Source: Nanobdellota archaeon
GTDB taxonomy: Archaea > Nanobdellota > Nanobdellia > Woesearchaeales > UBA9642
Direction: 5' to 3'
DNA: 64,000 bases
Assembly (NCBI GenBank): GCA_021813435.1
Contig: JAKAKR010000007.1
Span: forward strand, 1-64,000
Positions 3,001 to 63,879 of the stretch are shown piece by piece. The notes under the pieces are model-generated. The model saw only the letters and a program-made list of their open reading frames with translations, did no database searches and was not told the DNA's origin. A program made the translations under genes and the position numbers. Position 1 is the stretch's first letter. The number at the start of each line of letters is the position of its first letter.

Positions 3001-5463
3001 AATATCCGGCGAAGCGAGGAACGAAACCTAACTGTACGCCAGACGACCAACATGACGCTTACGGTTAGCGCCGGAAATATCACTTATGAGCAAGGATCGC
3101 CAGTCACTATTACAGTCACGACCAAGGACTTATATGGAACGCCGCTTTCTGCAGATACACGAACTGCAATCATCTATCTCAATACCACAATAACAACAAT
3201 ACCCTGGTGGAACGGATCATGGCCGTACCGCAATTTCATCAATATAACTGAAACGAACAATACCAATCTGACTAATTATCAGGTGAATGTCAGCTTAAAT
3301 ACTTCGCAACTCATCGCTGCAGGAAAGCTCCTCGCGGATTGTAGTGATCTGCGATTCACCGATGACACCGCCGTTGAAATCCCCTACTATACCGAGAGTG
3401 GTTGCAATACCACCAATACGCAGGTCTGGTTGAAACTGAATCTCACTGGGAACAAGAGCAAAACCATTGTTGTCTACTATGGCAATCCATCAGCAACCGC
3501 AGTATCGAACGGCTCGCGCATATTCAACTATTACGATAGCGGAGACCAGCTTGCAAGCTGGTCTCTGGTCGGAACCACAGGACAATCCGCAGTACAGGGA
3601 ATGCCTGCCCCAAGTTATTATGCAACGTCCGTCAATGGAAATTATCTCTACCGGAATGTTTCCCTTGCGATAAACTCCGTAGTTGAATTCAATGTACGGT
3701 CCGATGGTCTTGGAAACTTCTATTTCCTTGCGAACAGTGCGGGCGCAGGGCAGCACTTCAGGGCAGAGACGCGTGCAGGAAACAATGCAGGAATTGGTGC
3801 AGCAGCATCGTGGACATCCTGGAGCGTGCCCTCGCAGACCTGTAGCAACCTTGCAACAAACACCTGGTACAGCTTCAAACTCATCATCTTATCTACAACC
3901 GCTCAGGCGTATATCAACAACACCGTATGCGGCAGCGCATACACCTTCACAAACAACGGCCCGTATATTGGTCTTATTGGAGATGCATTGGGTGCATCAT
4001 ACACCACATGGTGGGATAACCTCCGCATACGCGCATACGCGGCTCAAGAACCTTCGGCGCGAACCATGCAAAATGAACAACAATTGCTCCAATGGAATAC
4101 CAACACTACAAATATTATTGATGGAACATCGCATTTCTTATTTGACAGCAAAAATCAACCTTATGGAAATTACTCTGTCGTTGCCATCGCCAATTTGACA
4201 GGATTTTTCGATGCGATGAATGCCACCTATTTCACACTGATCCCGGATACCACACCTCCGACCGTAACACTACTCGCACCTTCCAATCTTGCGCAGGCAG
4301 GATCAGGGTATTTCAATTTCACTTATCTTCCATTTGATTATAACCTCAAGAACTGTACACTGTATATTGACCGTAATGGAACATTCCTCCCAAATGTTTC
4401 TGATCAGAACCCGCAGAATAACGCCACTAATATGTTCCAAAATATCTATCTCGGTATAGGATTATACACGTGGAACGTCCGCTGTTATGACGTGCAGGGA
4501 AATGCGGCGTATGCGTTATCAAATTTCACACTCAATATCACACTACCAGATCTCTCGATTACAGCCAGTGCAATATTATTTGGAAACACCAGTACACCTG
4601 TCGAAAGCGAAACTATCCCAATTTATGCAAATATCTCCAACATAGGTCTAAGTGGCATTAACCAATCATTCATCGTAGCATTCTATCATACGGACCCGTC
4701 AATCAATGGATCACAGATTGGGCAGAATATCACCGTTTCAGGTCTTGCTGCAGGTTCGACGGTACAAGTGAATACATCATATGATCTTACTGCAGGAACA
4801 AATAAGATTGTAGTCGTTCTTGATGTATCCAGCATGATAAATGAGACGTCCAAGGCAAATAATAATGCGACAAACAGCATCATCGTGGGCATGTATCAAT
4901 ACTACTATGGCAACATTAGTAACACTATCGTACTCTCGACTGCACAGAATAACACATTCCGATCGGTTATCGATGCGAATATTACGAGCGGGATCATTTT
5001 TATCGCTGATTCGGATAGTTCATTCCAATTCGGAAATCTCCAGTCTCTCGGACGGAATATTCTCAATAGCACGGTAAATAACGACTTCGCCGAACTCGAC
5101 TCAATTCTAGGGAGCACCAACAATACGGATTCTATTGACCAGATATGGACAAATAATACAGATGTCCCGTCCCAGACGGATATATTTACCATTCTGGGAA
5201 GAGATATCTCAAACGTTCCCATCATAAACTCCACTGATAACGGCAATTTTGAGACCGGAATATTCTGGGATACTGCTGACGATTACAGTGTAAATTATCA
5301 ATATGATATTATCGACCATGAAGATATCGTATTTGCGACAAAAATTAATCCCCGAAAACCCGGGAGGTATGGAACATACGATTATGAAATACGAGTCCCT
5401 GCCGCACTACGATCATATACGGGATTGACAAACACTGTCGCATTTTATTACGAAATCAAGTAA
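1..5463 (+). CDS. Giant secreted Ig-repeat surface protein with DUF2341 and C-terminal A-module (5' partial)
   Basis: The frame is open from the first base of the window, so the gene starts upstream; 1820 residues are visible. It is packed with NxS/T sequons and with Ig-like repeats that begin DTTPP..V.L..P and carry a conserved C-x-L-Y/I pair, which suggests a cell-surface stalk. A DUF2341 domain spans about residues 1067-1355 (WWNGSWPYRNF start, WDNLRIRAYA end), and the window opens in the tail of an earlier DUF2341 copy (YDNIRVRKY). A CARDB-like domain follows at about 1517-1630. The last ~190 residues align with the secreted A-module proteins downstream (YYGNIS start, YDYEI..VAFYYEIK end). 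No C-terminal membrane helix is seen, so anchoring is unknown. The stop codon lies inside the target duplication of a MITE. Confidence 0.9.
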   Translation: MTTGGQTKVCTDSTYASAGEISLQNHYGNATLYDNIRVRKYSAVNPVVSYGSEAHMGEKGVIPMNTGLPFYTLGNNPFNLSTMTCLSNMNLNDSCVLNWVVNSTGNPSTPWTFFVIANSSITANQSSSIIITIVNDTIPPALTAASINTTSINQSETVRLNVTITDQTPVMWATATLQYPNNTLINYSLAPSGSGDIWSTIFSDTNTTGTYTITRIIAVDQAGNMNNTAFSTIAFNVTPSPPAPFSLLNPANGTESASLTPTLAWQQTTDATFANYTILLSTANNFSTIAFMYNTFTMTNTTKLLDYALNANVHYYWRIVAYDVFGSSTNATSDYEYITDTLAPTVDLMTPANTFSVLTTQVAFNYTPHDANTLDHCTLYGNFSGFWSSNQTNITIAKDQQNHFVVTLSDGKYLWNVLCFDKAGNNGLATANYTLTVDTTPPIVQLMSPQNATLENNTNNEAFWANATDAMSGISSCTLIIDGAAVQTKSGITNGIPFNMTNFVSNGNHTWSMNCTDTNGFTGQSAIYNLTLDVVDHDPPIILINAPAPQTYLSSGIIAFNYTPQDATGIANCSLYIDGTANSTNTTVTVFAPNIIVADGVTEGYHNWTITCYDNSTQYNRGVSQTNNLTVDLTNPTVVLTTPSNNSFINSNTVNFSFIPNDTNLYRCILYGNFTGLFGPNISITNPFNGIENTLALYLADGTYLWNIQCLDAAGRSSFAATNYTITVDTIPPAYTAIAVSPLSPTIYNSGQTYQFNSSWIDNYAVDTVLLEQNFSGMMQNSTAQYMGNGVYEINRTGLAAGNYSYRWYANDSLNNVNNTPQYYYEVQQAYPIINLYLNGTTANISTAEGGLINITASLTAPATGYITLSINGVIINNGSAPLTNLTLFTTPGLYTVTAYYPATQNYTTGNATYSVHVNDTTPPNVTLQFPANASIVGIATVTFQYLVQDASAIANCSLLIGGTINQTDTNVTRNVTQTFSIYLPDGNYTWSVQCADSYANIRRSEERNLTVRQTTNMTLTVSAGNITYEQGSPVTITVTTKDLYGTPLSADTRTAIIYLNTTITTIPWWNGSWPYRNFINITETNNTNLTNYQVNVSLNTSQLIAAGKLLADCSDLRFTDDTAVEIPYYTESGCNTTNTQVWLKLNLTGNKSKTIVVYYGNPSATAVSNGSRIFNYYDSGDQLASWSLVGTTGQSAVQGMPAPSYYATSVNGNYLYRNVSLAINSVVEFNVRSDGLGNFYFLANSAGAGQHFRAETRAGNNAGIGAAASWTSWSVPSQTCSNLATNTWYSFKLIILSTTAQAYINNTVCGSAYTFTNNGPYIGLIGDALGASYTTWWDNLRIRAYAAQEPSARTMQNEQQLLQWNTNTTNIIDGTSHFLFDSKNQPYGNYSVVAIANLTGFFDAMNATYFTLIPDTTPPTVTLLAPSNLAQAGSGYFNFTYLPFDYNLKNCTLYIDRNGTFLPNVSDQNPQNNATNMFQNIYLGIGLYTWNVRCYDVQGNAAYALSNFTLNITLPDLSITASAILFGNTSTPVESETIPIYANISNIGLSGINQSFIVAFYHTDPSINGSQIGQNITVSGLAAGSTVQVNTSYDLTAGTNKIVVVLDVSSMINETSKANNNATNSIIVGMYQYYYGNISNTIVLSTAQNNTFRSVIDANITSGIIFIADSDSSFQFGNLQSLGRNILNSTVNNDFAELDSILGSTNNTDSIDQIWTNNTDVPSQTDIFTILGRDISNVPIINSTDNGNFETGIFWDTADDYSVNYQYDIIDHEDIVFATKINPRKPGRYGTYDYEIRVPAALRSYTGLTNTVAFYYEIK

Positions 5464-59529: not shown

Positions 59530-59575
59530 ATCATTCGGTTTGTGGAGAATAGTATTTGAATGTATGGGGGTTACT

Positions 59576-60937
59576 ATGAACCGTAAATCACTCTATATCC
59601 TCTTGGTATTGCAAGCACTCATCATCCTGCTTCTCTGCCTTGCGCAGGGACTAACGAGAACTATCACGCTCGTGGTCTTTGGCATTGTCGATCTTGCGAT
59701 CCTTATTACACTCCTCATGCGCAAGTGGAGCTTTGCAGAATTCTTCGCATTCACCGCATTCTTCTCATCACTGCTCTTTAGCGCATTCTTTCTGCCCATG
59801 GCAGGATTATTGACTATAGTACTTGGCGTTGCAGTCATGATACTATTTCTTGTCGCGGCATGGCTGGACTATATCGAAAATGTTAAATTCCAGCAAGCAG
59901 TAAGTGAAGTCGAGGGCGCAAAGCCATTACTTCGCGTGTATGATCATGAGGAATATCCTGAATTGCGCCCTGTTCAATCACCATCAGTGCAACCGTCGCC
60001 TCAGAAGCCCGCAGATTCTTCTTCGCTCACTGAAGCGCGTACAATCACACCGCAGACAGAACAACCCGGTCTTGAAGAGTATGATGTTCATGAACTCGAA
60101 CGCCAGGCAACAGAACTCGAAAAGATCGATCAGCAGATCCGCGACTTCCAGAATGCCATGAAAAAGATCGAGGAAGAAAAGAAGCGGGAGAAAAAGAGTA
60201 CATCTGCAGTTTCCATGCCTCTTCAAATCACTCCCCTGCAAGTTCGCCCTGCAGCAAAACCGCGTGCTGCGCCACATGCTGCAAAAAAATCAATCTCACA
60301 CGCTCCAAGACAGGATGCACAAAAGGCCCGCGCGCAGGCAGTCGCGTATGAATTAGAACGTGAAGCACGTGCATTAAAGAAAGCGCAGGAAGATATTGTC
60401 AAGGTCCAGAACCGCGCGAAGGTAAAACGTGTTGCAAGAGAAGCTGAAGCATTGCAGCGCGCGCAGCGCGATATCAACCAGATCAAGGCAGCGACAAAGA
60501 CCATGCAGGTACTCCGCGAGGCTAATGCGCTCAAGAACGCGCAGCGCGATATCAACCACGTCCAAGAACGTGGAACGACAACGAAAATATTGCGCGAAGC
60601 AGCAGTACTTGCCCAGGCGCAAAAGTCCATCACTGCAGCAAAAGCAGCGTCTGCAAAGAAAAAACAGAACGCACTTACCCGCGAGGCGCATGAACTCGTC
60701 AGATTGCAAAAGAGCATCGATACGCTTGCAAAGGCAAAACCCAAGACCAAGACTGTGCGTGTCGTATCGCCTGCACCTAAAGAGTCATTCTTTGTCGCAA
60801 CAGACACCGGAACTAATTTTCACGAACCCGGCTGCATGACCATCAAGCATGTAAAAAAGAATAAACTGACACTTTTCACTTCACGAAAAGATGCATTAAA
60901 GCATGGCTATCATCCCTGCAATGTGTGCAAACCCTAG
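59576..60937 (+). CDS. Membrane protein with four coiled-coil repeats and Ada-like metal-binding tail
   Basis: 453 residues from ATG 59576. Three to four N-terminal membrane helices (to ~100), a Pro/Ser linker, a charged coiled coil, and then four related ~35-residue units with the pattern REA.AL..AQ.DI..(V/I)...... K. The C-terminus SFFVATDTGTNFHEPGCMTI..HVKKNKLTLFTSRKDALKHGYHPCNVCKP resembles the small Cys/His metal-binding domain also found at the end of Ada and some nucleases. The combination of membrane anchor, rods and metal site is not one I know. Confidence 0.8.
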   Translation: MNRKSLYILLVLQALIILLLCLAQGLTRTITLVVFGIVDLAILITLLMRKWSFAEFFAFTAFFSSLLFSAFFLPMAGLLTIVLGVAVMILFLVAAWLDYIENVKFQQAVSEVEGAKPLLRVYDHEEYPELRPVQSPSVQPSPQKPADSSSLTEARTITPQTEQPGLEEYDVHELERQATELEKIDQQIRDFQNAMKKIEEEKKREKKSTSAVSMPLQITPLQVRPAAKPRAAPHAAKKSISHAPRQDAQKARAQAVAYELEREARALKKAQEDIVKVQNRAKVKRVAREAEALQRAQRDINQIKAATKTMQVLREANALKNAQRDINHVQERGTTTKILREAAVLAQAQKSITAAKAASAKKKQNALTREAHELVRLQKSIDTLAKAKPKTKTVRVVSPAPKESFFVATDTGTNFHEPGCMTIKHVKKNKLTLFTSRKDALKHGYHPCNVCKP

Positions 60938-60959: not shown

Positions 60960-61376
60960 ATGATTGTAACAACTATCGATAATAAAAAGGTCTATATCAC
61001 TGAAGAATTGATTAATTATCTAACAAAACAAAAACAGGATACTCAAAAGACAGAGATGTTTCTTCCTGTAACAACTGAAGATGTAAACGTGTTTTTGCTT
61101 AATAATCATAAAGCATTGTTTGATTATGACGATAATTTCAATAGCATAACCAAAACTTCTTACCGAACCCAGAATGGCGGACCGAAAATCGATAAATATA
61201 ACACCCAAGAAATGGAATCTTTCAGCTTGGATTCCTCAATCACGCAATCGCTGACTGAAGCATATCATGTTCGCAGCGCAAAAAATCTTACGGGTAGAGT
61301 ATTGGGGATTTATGCATTGCCACTGAATGGCGATAAAAAATTCGTCTTTGGCGTATATGCTGTGAATGAAAAATAA
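60960..61376 (+). CDS. Hypothetical protein
   Basis: 138 residues, no signal or TM, mixed alpha/beta (KKVYITEELINYLTKQ start, GRVLGIYALPLNGDKKFVFGVYAVNEK end). Preceded by a AAGGTGA ribosome binding site and 22 bases after the stop of the previous gene, so probably in the same message. No family recognised. Its 3' end lies 14 bases from the severed nre tail. Confidence 0.65.
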   Translation: MIVTTIDNKKVYITEELINYLTKQKQDTQKTEMFLPVTTEDVNVFLLNNHKALFDYDDNFNSITKTSYRTQNGGPKIDKYNTQEMESFSLDSSITQSLTEAYHVRSAKNLTGRVLGIYALPLNGDKKFVFGVYAVNEK

Positions 61377-61390
61377 AAATAATATGTTGA

Positions 61391-61564
61391 TTAATATTCC
61401 CATAATTTTTTCTGCTGTTTCAACTGATTGTAGAGCTTACTCTCTTTCAGGATTCCAGCGATGTCGTACTTGAATCGTTCTTGAGCAAATGCCATCGCGT
61501 ACTGCATCATCTCATCCATTGACGAGAAATAGATTTGCGTGCTGTTCATTGATTTCTTGCTCGA
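61391..61564 (-). pseudogene. Severed original 3' end of nre
   Basis: Read leftward from 61564 this encodes 57 residues without a start: SSKKSMNSTQIYF...FAQERFKYDIAGILKES and ending QLKQQKKLWEY then stop. It aligns from its first residue with the last 58 residues of the intact nre (SSKKSM...EKFKYDVSEIFKKS...QLHRQRRIRDFF), by hand 24 of 57 identical. An in-frame stop (TAA, 61568-61570) lies just upstream, so it is cut off. The end QKKLWEY is a plausible PIP-type PCNA motif. Codons are more GC-rich than in the replacement tail, like the nre body. Confidence 0.85.
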
Positions 61565-61653
61565 AAATTAATTATTTTTCGCTCTGTAAATCACATCGGA
61601 ATGTTTTCGACTATTAAATTGTGATTTTCCCTCACTAGACAACCAGTCGTGAG

Positions 61654-61663
61654 GTATATAAAT
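61654..61663 (+). promoter_or_regulatory. TATA box of the endonuclease gene, within dyads
   Basis: GGTATATAAATCAC lies ~40 bases before ATG 61702. Just upstream, CTCAC-TAGACAACCAGTC-GTGAG (61631-61653) is an imperfect dyad, a possible operator. Confidence 0.5.
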
Positions 61664-61701
61664 CACTTATGTAGTCTCAACTAAGGGTTCCGGTGATTTA
61701 C

Positions 61702-62709
61702 ATGGATTATCGAAAAATACATATTTGGGAATTTCCTCCGACAAGAACAACAATAAAATTGGATGATACGTTTAGACAGATGTTATTTAAAAAAGCGATT
61801 GCTATGTTTGATAATCGAGAAAAATTTATTTCTTATATTAACAGTCAAGCATGGTTTTATGGAATAAAAAGAAATCATAACAGTTTGGCTGTCTATTCGT
61901 GGATAAAAGGCAAAAAAATGGACCGGAAGATGCTAAGAACAGTTAACGTTCCATTATGGGTACTTATAGAAATTTCAAAAATACTTTCCAATGCAAAATC
62001 TATGGATAACCTCTCTATGCATAATATAGAAAAACATATCCGCTACTATTCGGGATGGGGCAGATCTATTCCTGTTTTTCCTTCCTCGTTACCTTTGATT
62101 TTAACGCCAGAGATGTATTCTGTTATCTTCCATTTTTTAGGAGATGGTCATATCGGAAAAACAAACGTTTCTTCATCCTACCGCCAGATGAATCCTTTAG
62201 GATTAAAAAATTTCTTATCTAAATTGCAAAATAGCTTCGGAAAATTTGGATATGGATTAAATGAATTTAATAATGGCCGATTGAATGTTCCTAAGATTAT
62301 TACGGATTTTTATGCCTACTATTTCCTTCTTCCTGATACAGATACTTTCGTATCTTATGTTCCAGAACATCTTAAGAAGTATCCTGCGGACTTTTTGAAA
62401 GTGGCATTATTCTCTTTTATTGTTGATGAAGGCAATATCGGTGAAGTGATTACTATCTATTCAAAAAATAAACAATTATTATCGGATATTCATGATATTG
62501 GTGAACATTGTGGGTATATTTGTCATCCCATCAGAGAAAAATATGCATGTAAAAAATTTGATTGTTATAGATTCAGTATTTCTTCATACAGTTATCCGCA
62601 GATTAAATCTGATATTGCGCGAATTTCACAAATATTTCCAACCTGCGATTTAGCACATAAAACTGCTATTTTCTTAGAAAAAATCCCGAATTCTTCTTTG
62701 TCGATGTAA
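61702..62709 (+). CDS. LAGLIDADG-type homing endonuclease
   Basis: 335 residues from ATG 61702; a GTG nine bases earlier (61693) is an alternative. Two dodecapeptide-like motifs are visible: VIFHFLGDGHIGK (about 150-162) and VALFSFIVDEGNIGE (about 236-250), each with the acidic metal ligand (D, E/D). The ~130-residue N-terminal part has a basic helical region (AVYSWIKGKKMDRK) that may bind DNA. Strongly AT-rich codons. Its 3' end overlaps the convergent nre tail by 36 bases. The natural target is expected at the nre SSKKSM codons; activity is inferred. Confidence 0.8.
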   Translation: MDYRKIHIWEFPPTRTTIKLDDTFRQMLFKKAIAMFDNREKFISYINSQAWFYGIKRNHNSLAVYSWIKGKKMDRKMLRTVNVPLWVLIEISKILSNAKSMDNLSMHNIEKHIRYYSGWGRSIPVFPSSLPLILTPEMYSVIFHFLGDGHIGKTNVSSSYRQMNPLGLKNFLSKLQNSFGKFGYGLNEFNNGRLNVPKIITDFYAYYFLLPDTDTFVSYVPEHLKKYPADFLKVALFSFIVDEGNIGEVITIYSKNKQLLSDIHDIGEHCGYICHPIREKYACKKFDCYRFSISSYSYPQIKSDIARISQIFPTCDLAHKTAIFLEKIPNSSLSM

Positions 62710-63879
62710 TTGATCGAGTAATACACTTTTTTTGAATATTTCTGACACGTCGTATTTGAATTTTTCTTTAACAAATTTTTTTGCATACGTTAATAACTCT
62801 TCTTTGCTATTAAATTGTAGCGGATTCGTACTCATAGATTTTTTAGAAGATTCTCGACAAACCCAGACTCCTAAAGGCGCCCAATATTCATCAGTGATGA
62901 AACGCAATGCAAGGATTGCAGCCTGCTTTTTCTCTCTCTTCAACTGTTCAAGGATGCTGAGTCGCGCAGCATAATATCCGCCGACAGTGTCTGATGCATA
63001 ATCCTTTCTTCCTTCGTACCATTCATGATCAGTCGAATACTCGCCGCTCGAGACCCCCATCTCAAAGAGTTCGTACGACCAGGGTTCAGGAAACAGGAGG
63101 ATCAGATAATAATTGCCCAGGTATCCGGAAAAATATGCGGCATACTCTCCGGTCTTGTAATCCTTGATCTCCTCAATAAGTTTTTTGCCGAGCGTATCAT
63201 CGACTGCAGTGATGGCCCAGCGTGTAGGGACAAATTTCTTATTGCCGGTGAGCCCAAGATTTCCGGTGCTGAGTATCTTGGTTAAGTAGTGCTGCTCAAA
63301 TCCATTCGCATGGAGAATCTCAAGTCCCTCGCTGGCCTTCAGATCGTCACTCACAATCTTGTCGACTTTGTGTGGAATCTTGATATTTTCTGTGGCGCGT
63401 GCAGACTCCACATTCACTTTTGGGCCGTGCGGCGCTGCCTCCTGATGGAGACTGAGGCTGAACTGCGGTTTTTTCTCTAAGCTCACTTCAGTATCCACTG
63501 GCTCTTTTGCAAGCGCGATATCCCGCGCGAGTGCAGTGAACCGGTCATTGAATCCCTTGATCTGCGTTCTAAAATTTGAATTGATGAGGTTTGATCGTTT
63601 GGTGATGACATCCTCGATCTGATAATTCTTGTCAGCCCAGAGTTGAGGGTTGTCTGCATCATCCTCTTTGGTGAGTTCACCGGTATTCAAGAAACCAACA
63701 TTGATATTAGGGTAGCCAAATCTGCCGACAAAGACATTATAATTCTCGCCAGAGAACTCTTTTTTTGCCTTCTCATTGAATTCCTGTTGGATCTTGATCT
63801 TGTCGCGCAGGATGCAATAGCACTGCCTATGGATAATCTTGTTTCCGCACCGCGGGCAGATTGAAGGGGCGACGTGCAT
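62674..63879 (-). CDS. nre: Nre-family DNA repair protein with swapped C-terminus
   Basis: 401 residues. Nre proteins are archaeal repair factors that bind PCNA. A Cys zinc motif is at the start (CPRCGN...CYC), then NVFVGRFGYPNINVGFL, IKGFNDRFTALARDIALAKEPVDTEV, and a C-terminal WAPLGVWVCRESSKKSM leading to the tail with QRRIRDFF, a textbook PIP box. The last ~58 residues (62674 to ~62850) are AT-rich and differ in codon use from the body; they come from the inserted cassette. TATA-like AAAAATATAAAC at about 63900-63910 fits a leaderless start at 63879. Confidence 0.9.
   Translation of the reverse strand: MHVAPSICPRCGNKIIHRQCYCILRDKIKIQQEFNEKAKKEFSGENYNVFVGRFGYPNINVGFLNTGELTKEDDADNPQLWADKNYQIEDVITKRSNLINSNFRTQIKGFNDRFTALARDIALAKEPVDTEVSLEKKPQFSLSLHQEAAPHGPKVNVESARATENIKIPHKVDKIVSDDLKASEGLEILHANGFEQHYLTKILSTGNLGLTGNKKFVPTRWAITAVDDTLGKKLIEEIKDYKTGEYAAYFSGYLGNYYLILLFPEPWSYELFEMGVSSGEYSTDHEWYEGRKDYASDTVGGYYAARLSILEQLKREKKQAAILALRFITDEYWAPLGVWVCRESSKKSMSTNPLQFNSKEELLTYAKKFVKEKFKYDVSEIFKKSVLLDQLHRQRRIRDFF

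Follow-up and report, generated by a model that had tools for sequence, protein, structure and literature searches.

A putative homing cassette that carries a replacement 3' end for the archaeal nre gene

We found that the nre gene of a Nanobdellota archaeon ends in a tail that differs markedly in base composition from the gene body, and that a second, stop-terminated copy of the same gene end lies beyond an endonuclease gene encoded on the opposite strand. This anatomy, its recurrence in other lineages, the junctions shared between carriers and the native-like character of displaced tails can be read directly in the DNA. They are best explained by a mobile cassette that inserted in nre at codons for the residues WVVRE, bringing a foreign in-frame tail together with an antisense LAGLIDADG gene and leaving the native tail stranded, a reading that we consider very likely (probability about 0.88).

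The two nre tails

The locus lies in a 64,000-nucleotide stretch of contig JAKAKR010000007.1 (hereafter, the window). nre (62674-63879, minus strand) is intact and encodes a 401-residue Nre protein with Pfam matches to Nre_N (1.6e-71) and Nre_C (4.3e-31). Its native part (62860..63879, minus strand), to which the Nre_N/Nre_C assignment applies, runs up to the WV codons of the insertion point. The remaining part (62674..62859, minus strand), which begins with the TGT (Cys) codon of WVCRE and includes the stop, is the presumed imported replacement tail, which has a GC content of 27.4% and a PIP-like motif, QRRIRDFF, at its end. The endonuclease gene (61702..62709, plus strand; 335-338 codons, with an alternative GTG start at 61693) is convergent to nre and shares 36 bases with its replaced end. 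An inverted-repeat, hairpin-forming region occupies the 5' side of the endonuclease gene (61583..61707, minus strand), followed by the presumed displaced native tail (61391..61564, minus strand), a fragment of 57 residues (SSKKSM...QKKLWEY) with its own stop and a weak Pfam Nre_C match (0.0017). A search of the genome returned this fragment as the sole other match to nre (E 1.2e-9, 43% identity over 56 residues), and the possibility that it is part of a complete separate gene was excluded. By direct count, 24 of 57 residues (42%) are identical between the two window tails, and their local alignment scores 136, as compared with 26 +/- 5 for 5000 shuffles (z 21.7). These values uphold the claim of an initial annotation, made from sequence alone, that two homologous, stop-terminated nre tails flank an endonuclease gene. 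Its placement of the start of the replacement at SSKKSM must be corrected: the replaced part begins at the cysteine codon of WVCRE (about 62859), slightly ahead of SSKKSM, which is merely the present start of the displaced copy, probably the result of a small deletion. The cassette measures about 1.3 kb (about 61565-62859). Between the displaced tail and an Ada-type zinc gene, the window also encodes a 138-residue protein of unknown family (60960-61376, plus strand); the matching place in relatives holds other small genes.

The nre body (62853-63879; overall GC 47.6%) has a third-position GC content (GC3) of 55.0%, similar to the 58.6% of the displaced copy, whereas the fused tail has only 23.7%; the overall GC content of the endonuclease gene is 31.7%. 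In four relatives, three from the same genus and one from the same family, nre has one uninterrupted tail, so that these relatives carry no tandem tails; the uninterrupted site of one genus relative (L005) has the codons LGVWVVREASKKAM. The Ada-type zinc gene (59540-60937) adjoins the displaced copy in the window and lies on the same side of the native nre end in L005 and L006. Mean identity to the family's empty sites is 36.8% for the displaced tail versus 34.0% for the fused tail, and the displaced copy is the nearer of the two in three of the four relatives. Because tail-to-tail identity differs only slightly, the origin of the window tails, probably native for the displaced copy and imported for the fused one, rests mainly on GC3 and gene neighbourhood, and also on the other cases.

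The clearest of these cases came from a second family, f80, in which two of 37 genomes gave two nre tail matches, both with an endonuclease between them. The family includes the carriers L054 and L056. Empty sites in this family have a displaced-type tail joined directly to the body, with 71-73% identity to the displaced copy of L056 (L056_R). Displaced tails of f80 reach up to 65-73% identity to the family's empty sites, as compared with at most 56% for fused tails. In the f80 tree, the displaced tails of L054 and L056 were placed among the family's uninterrupted tails, and their fused tails formed a clade with the tail of L055 (support 95/94), apart from the displaced tails; the body tree did not group L054, L056 and L055. 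This conflict between body and tail is in the expected direction and is not significant (forcing the carriers together, -11.5 log-likelihood, p-AU 0.10). Forcing each fused tail together with its own remnant cost 13.8-15.9 log-likelihood units, a tree that could not be rejected at 5% (p-AU 0.08-0.18) because the tails comprise only about 60 residues. The initial annotation had anticipated empty sites with a displaced-type tail fused to the body, which were found most clearly in f80 and, more weakly, among the window's relatives.

L055 (genome G185) is a separate observation. Its nre reads WVCRE, as in carriers, and has a tail that groups with the imported tails, with no endonuclease adjoining. 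It could be a converted or resistant allele left by homing, or a carrier that has since lost the endonuclease.

The endonuclease gene and its inverted repeat

Profile libraries (Pfam, NCBIfam and, at a significant level, PHROG) missed the window endonuclease when it was searched by itself, and a PDB sequence search with it returned chance matches only. Its assignment relies on an AlphaFold2 model (pLDDT 86), for which Foldseek returned the TliVMA and PI-SceI intein endonucleases and I-DmoI at probability 1.00, and also I-Tsp061I. Pfam LAGLIDADG_3 was matched by five of the 15 members of the family alignment (best 8.8e-8). Two motif-like segments, FHFLGDGHIG and FSFIVDEGNIG, contain GDG and DE columns that are invariant or nearly so in the 15 sequences, and several family members have a C-terminal winged helix. 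By its predicted fold, and with the acidic motif helices present, the window gene encodes a LAGLIDADG homing endonuclease; the earlier assignment to this class thus held by structure, not by a profile search of the window protein. Cleavage and homing are inferred, with no enzymatic data. Relatives were absent from viral contigs in two scans, hence no viral carrier was seen.

The region at 61583-61707 holds four TAAATCAC-type sites, a TATA-like box and the ribosome-binding site of the endonuclease gene. Its inverted repeat has a closing stem (GTAAATCACCGG/CCGATGTGATTTAC) and two inner stems (fold z -5.3). A covariance model located the same repeat beside endonuclease genes at L008, L018, L024, L015, L016, L153, L147, L125, L140, L047, L149 and L030, so that it stands directly upstream of the family's LAGLIDADG genes at differing host genes. 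Covariation supports the pairing, with 22 of 27 pairs changed on both sides and none of 500 shuffles doing as well, in an alignment that was itself fitted to the model. The repeat has no Rfam match; a count of 15 G-U versus 6 A-C cells leans weakly towards an RNA on the host strand. Because it overlaps the TATA-like box and the ribosome-binding site, a self-repression operator or a structured RNA may be suggested, neither as more than a possibility. In L024, L030 and L047, three related endonuclease genes follow htpX directly and are encoded on its strand, and in each case the conserved inverted repeat separates the two genes.

Recurrence at nre and at other host genes

Relatives of the endonuclease were sought in 371 genomes of the phylum and in a scan of GTDB genomes; all carriers are metagenome-assembled genomes. 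Counting that of the window, we found nine distinct endonucleases with identities of at least 42%; each is convergent to nre, with a stop overlap of 8-36 bases. In all nine nre carriers, the 3' end of the endonuclease gene is encoded inside the replacement tail. Six or more families are represented among the carriers, as are two named archaeal phyla, the second of which depends on the L038 contig being correctly labelled Candidatus ainarchaeum.

The left junction, TGG GT[TA] TGT CGA GA[AG] (TGGGT[TA]TGTCGAGA), is common to four carriers (window, L054, L056 and L037) and gives WVCRE; the window itself reads TGG GTT TGT CGA GA. Where carriers read WVCRE, most empty sites encode WVVRE or WVTRE. 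At the right junction of carriers L054, L056, L037 and L084, ...TTTTGTGTA is followed by TGGGTTGT (nTGGGTTGT), corresponding to the uncut WVVRE codons, with TGGGTCGT in place of TGGGTTGT in L084. The window, L054 and L056 retain the whole displaced tail, and L037 part of it. Four of the nine carriers have no clear displaced tail: L008, where only WVVR plus a stop remains, L010, L011 and the cut contig L038. Since the L011 endonuclease has lost its N-terminus, it is probably decaying. In a carrier from genome G276 (L039 62-4221, L088 and L110), about 4 kb separates the displaced tail from nre itself, and an extra 303-residue gene, which might be a later insertion or a passenger, stands between tail and endonuclease. 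Together, GC3, the empty relatives, the junctions and the f80 tails support what the initial annotation had proposed, the replacement of the nre tail by a cassette with its own PIP motif.

The endonuclease has spread horizontally, as it is better conserved than nre between most carriers. The window enzyme is 53-60% identical to those of six carriers whose nre bodies are 40-45% identical (60% versus 41% for L011, 55% versus 43% for L010), and it is better conserved than the nre body in seven of eight carrier comparisons. Between carriers, tail identity did not track endonuclease identity (Mantel p 0.12-0.53), and therefore tails may be swapped in the course of transfers. The pattern Q-x-x-hydrophobic-x-x-F is conserved in all nine fused tails, and the new nre ends are thus probably functional, an inference from motif conservation. 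In Haloferax, NreA function needs PCNA binding through the C-terminal PIP motif (PMC4929162), so that an insertion at the nre end must restore this motif.

Distant relatives of the endonuclease (24-31% identity) are common, occurring in 76 of 371 phylum genomes at E 1e-10, although this looser count is likely to take in other LAGLIDADG genes. Many of them are also convergent to, and overlap, the end of some gene. At elp3 (L130), topA (L161) and yjbQ (L117), which we take to be the host genes on the basis of their protein sequences and not of profile matches, the DNA holds a fused tail, an endonuclease gene and a displaced tail with its own stop. The duplication at yjbQ is short (8 of 12 residues), and this case rests on its DNA anatomy. 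For elp3, all seven relatives examined are nearer to the displaced copy than to the fused one, and for topA the same is true of 18 out of 19, the last being a tie; in both genes the displaced copy is the native-like one. The proposal that nre was chosen for its link to PCNA and repair, as would suit an element whose homing needs repair, was rejected: the 3' ends of elp3, topA and yjbQ are invaded likewise, and none of them points to PCNA repair.

Class II endonuclease genes overlap the start of a downstream gene. No duplicated N-terminus was found at the class II loci checked, and replacement was found only at gene ends. The window's own genome contains a second, distant family member of this class (L142, G000:C4:5700-12800; gene at 3138-4160, with one in-frame stop), which overlaps the start of a YchF-type GTPase gene, the same neighbour as in L016, L025 and L027. 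Another set of family members (L018, L020, L022, L048, L029 and L032) has sites at rtcB, where the open frame starts at the conserved DINCGVR motif; between P0 and L12, both ribosomal genes; at the carB start, close to FDYSGSQ; and at the start of a Hel308-like helicase gene.

A bolder reading, which we regard as likely, is that DPANN chromosomes hold a widespread class of tail-swapping homing cassettes, with LAGLIDADG genes that invade conserved genes (nre, elp3, topA, yjbQ, and perhaps ftsY, ppsA and endA) at the 3' end. The coding strand of the replacement end would overlap the endonuclease C-terminus, and the cassettes would spread between families and phyla, repeatedly shuffling the ends of essential and repair proteins, including PCNA-binding motifs.

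Proposed mechanism, rival explanations and known counterparts

In the mechanism we propose, the cassette would enter nre at the conserved WVVRE codons, carrying on one strand a foreign in-frame substitute for the last ~60 nre codons and on the other the convergent, overlapping LAGLIDADG gene. Insertion would sever the native tail, left as the fragment at 61391-61564, and the imported tail would keep nre intact with a new PIP-like end. The endonuclease most likely cuts uninterrupted nre at WVVRE, an inference supported indirectly by the same insertion codons in several lineages. The break would be repaired from the carrier allele, with homology supplied by the nre body to one side and by the tail to the other, and the cassette would thereby be copied in; the new junction, with its V to C change, would resist cutting. 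Cutting, the homing route, resistance and the function of the new tail are all inferred. Because the last codons of the endonuclease lie opposite the replacement tail strand, tail and endonuclease could not easily separate. As a family strategy, the same cassette would have used the same nre site in nine lineages, with distant relatives swapping the tails of elp3, topA and yjbQ.

The rival that survives best, though still unlikely, is a free-standing endonuclease beside nre that would cleave this gene and spread by co-conversion of its neighbour (intronless homing), the second tail being a by-product of imperfect repair outside the mobile unit. In its favour are the weak correlation between tail and endonuclease, the class II relatives that adjoin gene starts without a duplicated coding end, and the carrier-type tail without an endonuclease in L055. 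Against it, the endonuclease 3' end lies inside the replacement tail in every nre carrier, and the shared left-junction bases begin in the tail; tail and endonuclease gene therefore travel together, at least across the final stretch.

Another rival, in which the nre 3' end was duplicated in tandem and the copies then diverged, with an endonuclease gene dropping in between, is very unlikely and largely refuted. Both tails are intact and homologous, as this explanation would have it, and its tree is not rejected at 5%. However, the GC3 values of the two tails are strongly unlike (23.7 versus 58.6), displaced copies, where present, match host-family natives and fused copies do not, an identical junction recurs in several lineages, and empty relatives are single-tailed.

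The remaining rival is that the insert is an intervening sequence, whether an intein, a group I/II intron or a bulge-helix-bulge intron, so that splicing would make the displaced tail the real one. It has general plausibility, since archaeal LAGLIDADG genes often lie inside introns and inteins, but it is all but excluded: the endonuclease gene is antisense to nre, which stops before the insert continues, with no in-frame insertion bearing splicing domains; the fused tail is homologous, forms a whole coding end and has a PIP-like motif; 61300-63000 has no Rfam match to a group I/II intron; the junction-junction pairing expected of a bulge-helix-bulge intron did not exceed that of shuffles in the four carriers analysed; and several carriers have a lost or degraded displaced tail.

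The tail-swapping cassette means that a homing gene can invade a protein-coding gene without an intron or intein by bringing a spare gene end. In the literature searched, this strategy is described only for fungal mitochondria, and we found no prokaryotic counterpart there (subscription papers were mostly not covered), in line with the initial annotation, which knew of no archaeal chromosomal case. What is new here is a chromosomal, archaeal setting, one codon position repeated across distant lineages, and at least three further genes. The replacement and exchange of host-gene ends by selfish elements becomes directly testable by comparative genomics, and the family offers new site-specific endonucleases whose natural targets are conserved. 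As a caution, C-terminal phylogenies and PIP motifs of such genes may be foreign in origin.

Mobile ORFs of fungal mitochondria carry replacement C-termini for atp6, atp9, cox2 and nad3 that displace the native end (PMC3630166). The comparison with the mitochondrial atp6 element of Allomyces macrogynus, already drawn in the initial annotation, held: it too combines an endonuclease ORF with an in-frame foreign C-terminus, the native C-terminus being displaced downstream. There, the displaced copy matches a close relative, and mobility is reported as biochemically demonstrated (PMC3630166). Unlike that element, found in a fungal mitochondrion at one gene, the archaeal cases are chromosomal and antisense with overlapping stops, recur in two named phyla, and concern an unrelated host gene. 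The mitochondrial hybrids of Glomus sp. (atp6, atp9, cox2 and nad3), Rhizopus (atp9) and Mortierella (cox2) are similar in that a mobile ORF, LAGLIDADG or GIY-YIG, carries a C-terminal duplication at several host genes, with the native tail not expressed in atp6 and cox2 (PMC3630166). At least the atp6 and nad3 ORFs of the Glomus type are in phase with the host gene (Table 2 of PMC3630166), whereas the archaeal endonuclease is encoded on the opposite strand with its end within the replacement tail. The archaeal elements resemble the fungal ones in how they operate; they probably arose independently, although neither this nor shared descent has been demonstrated.

Free-standing endonucleases of T-even phages sit beside their targets, home intronlessly and spread by co-conversion. 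That system differs from the present one in having no replacement gene end and no displaced copy. Finally, archaeal I-DmoI, I-Tsp061I and intein endonucleases have a fold in common with the window enzyme, but they reside in introns or inteins that are removed, whereas the window element restores the gene with a new end.
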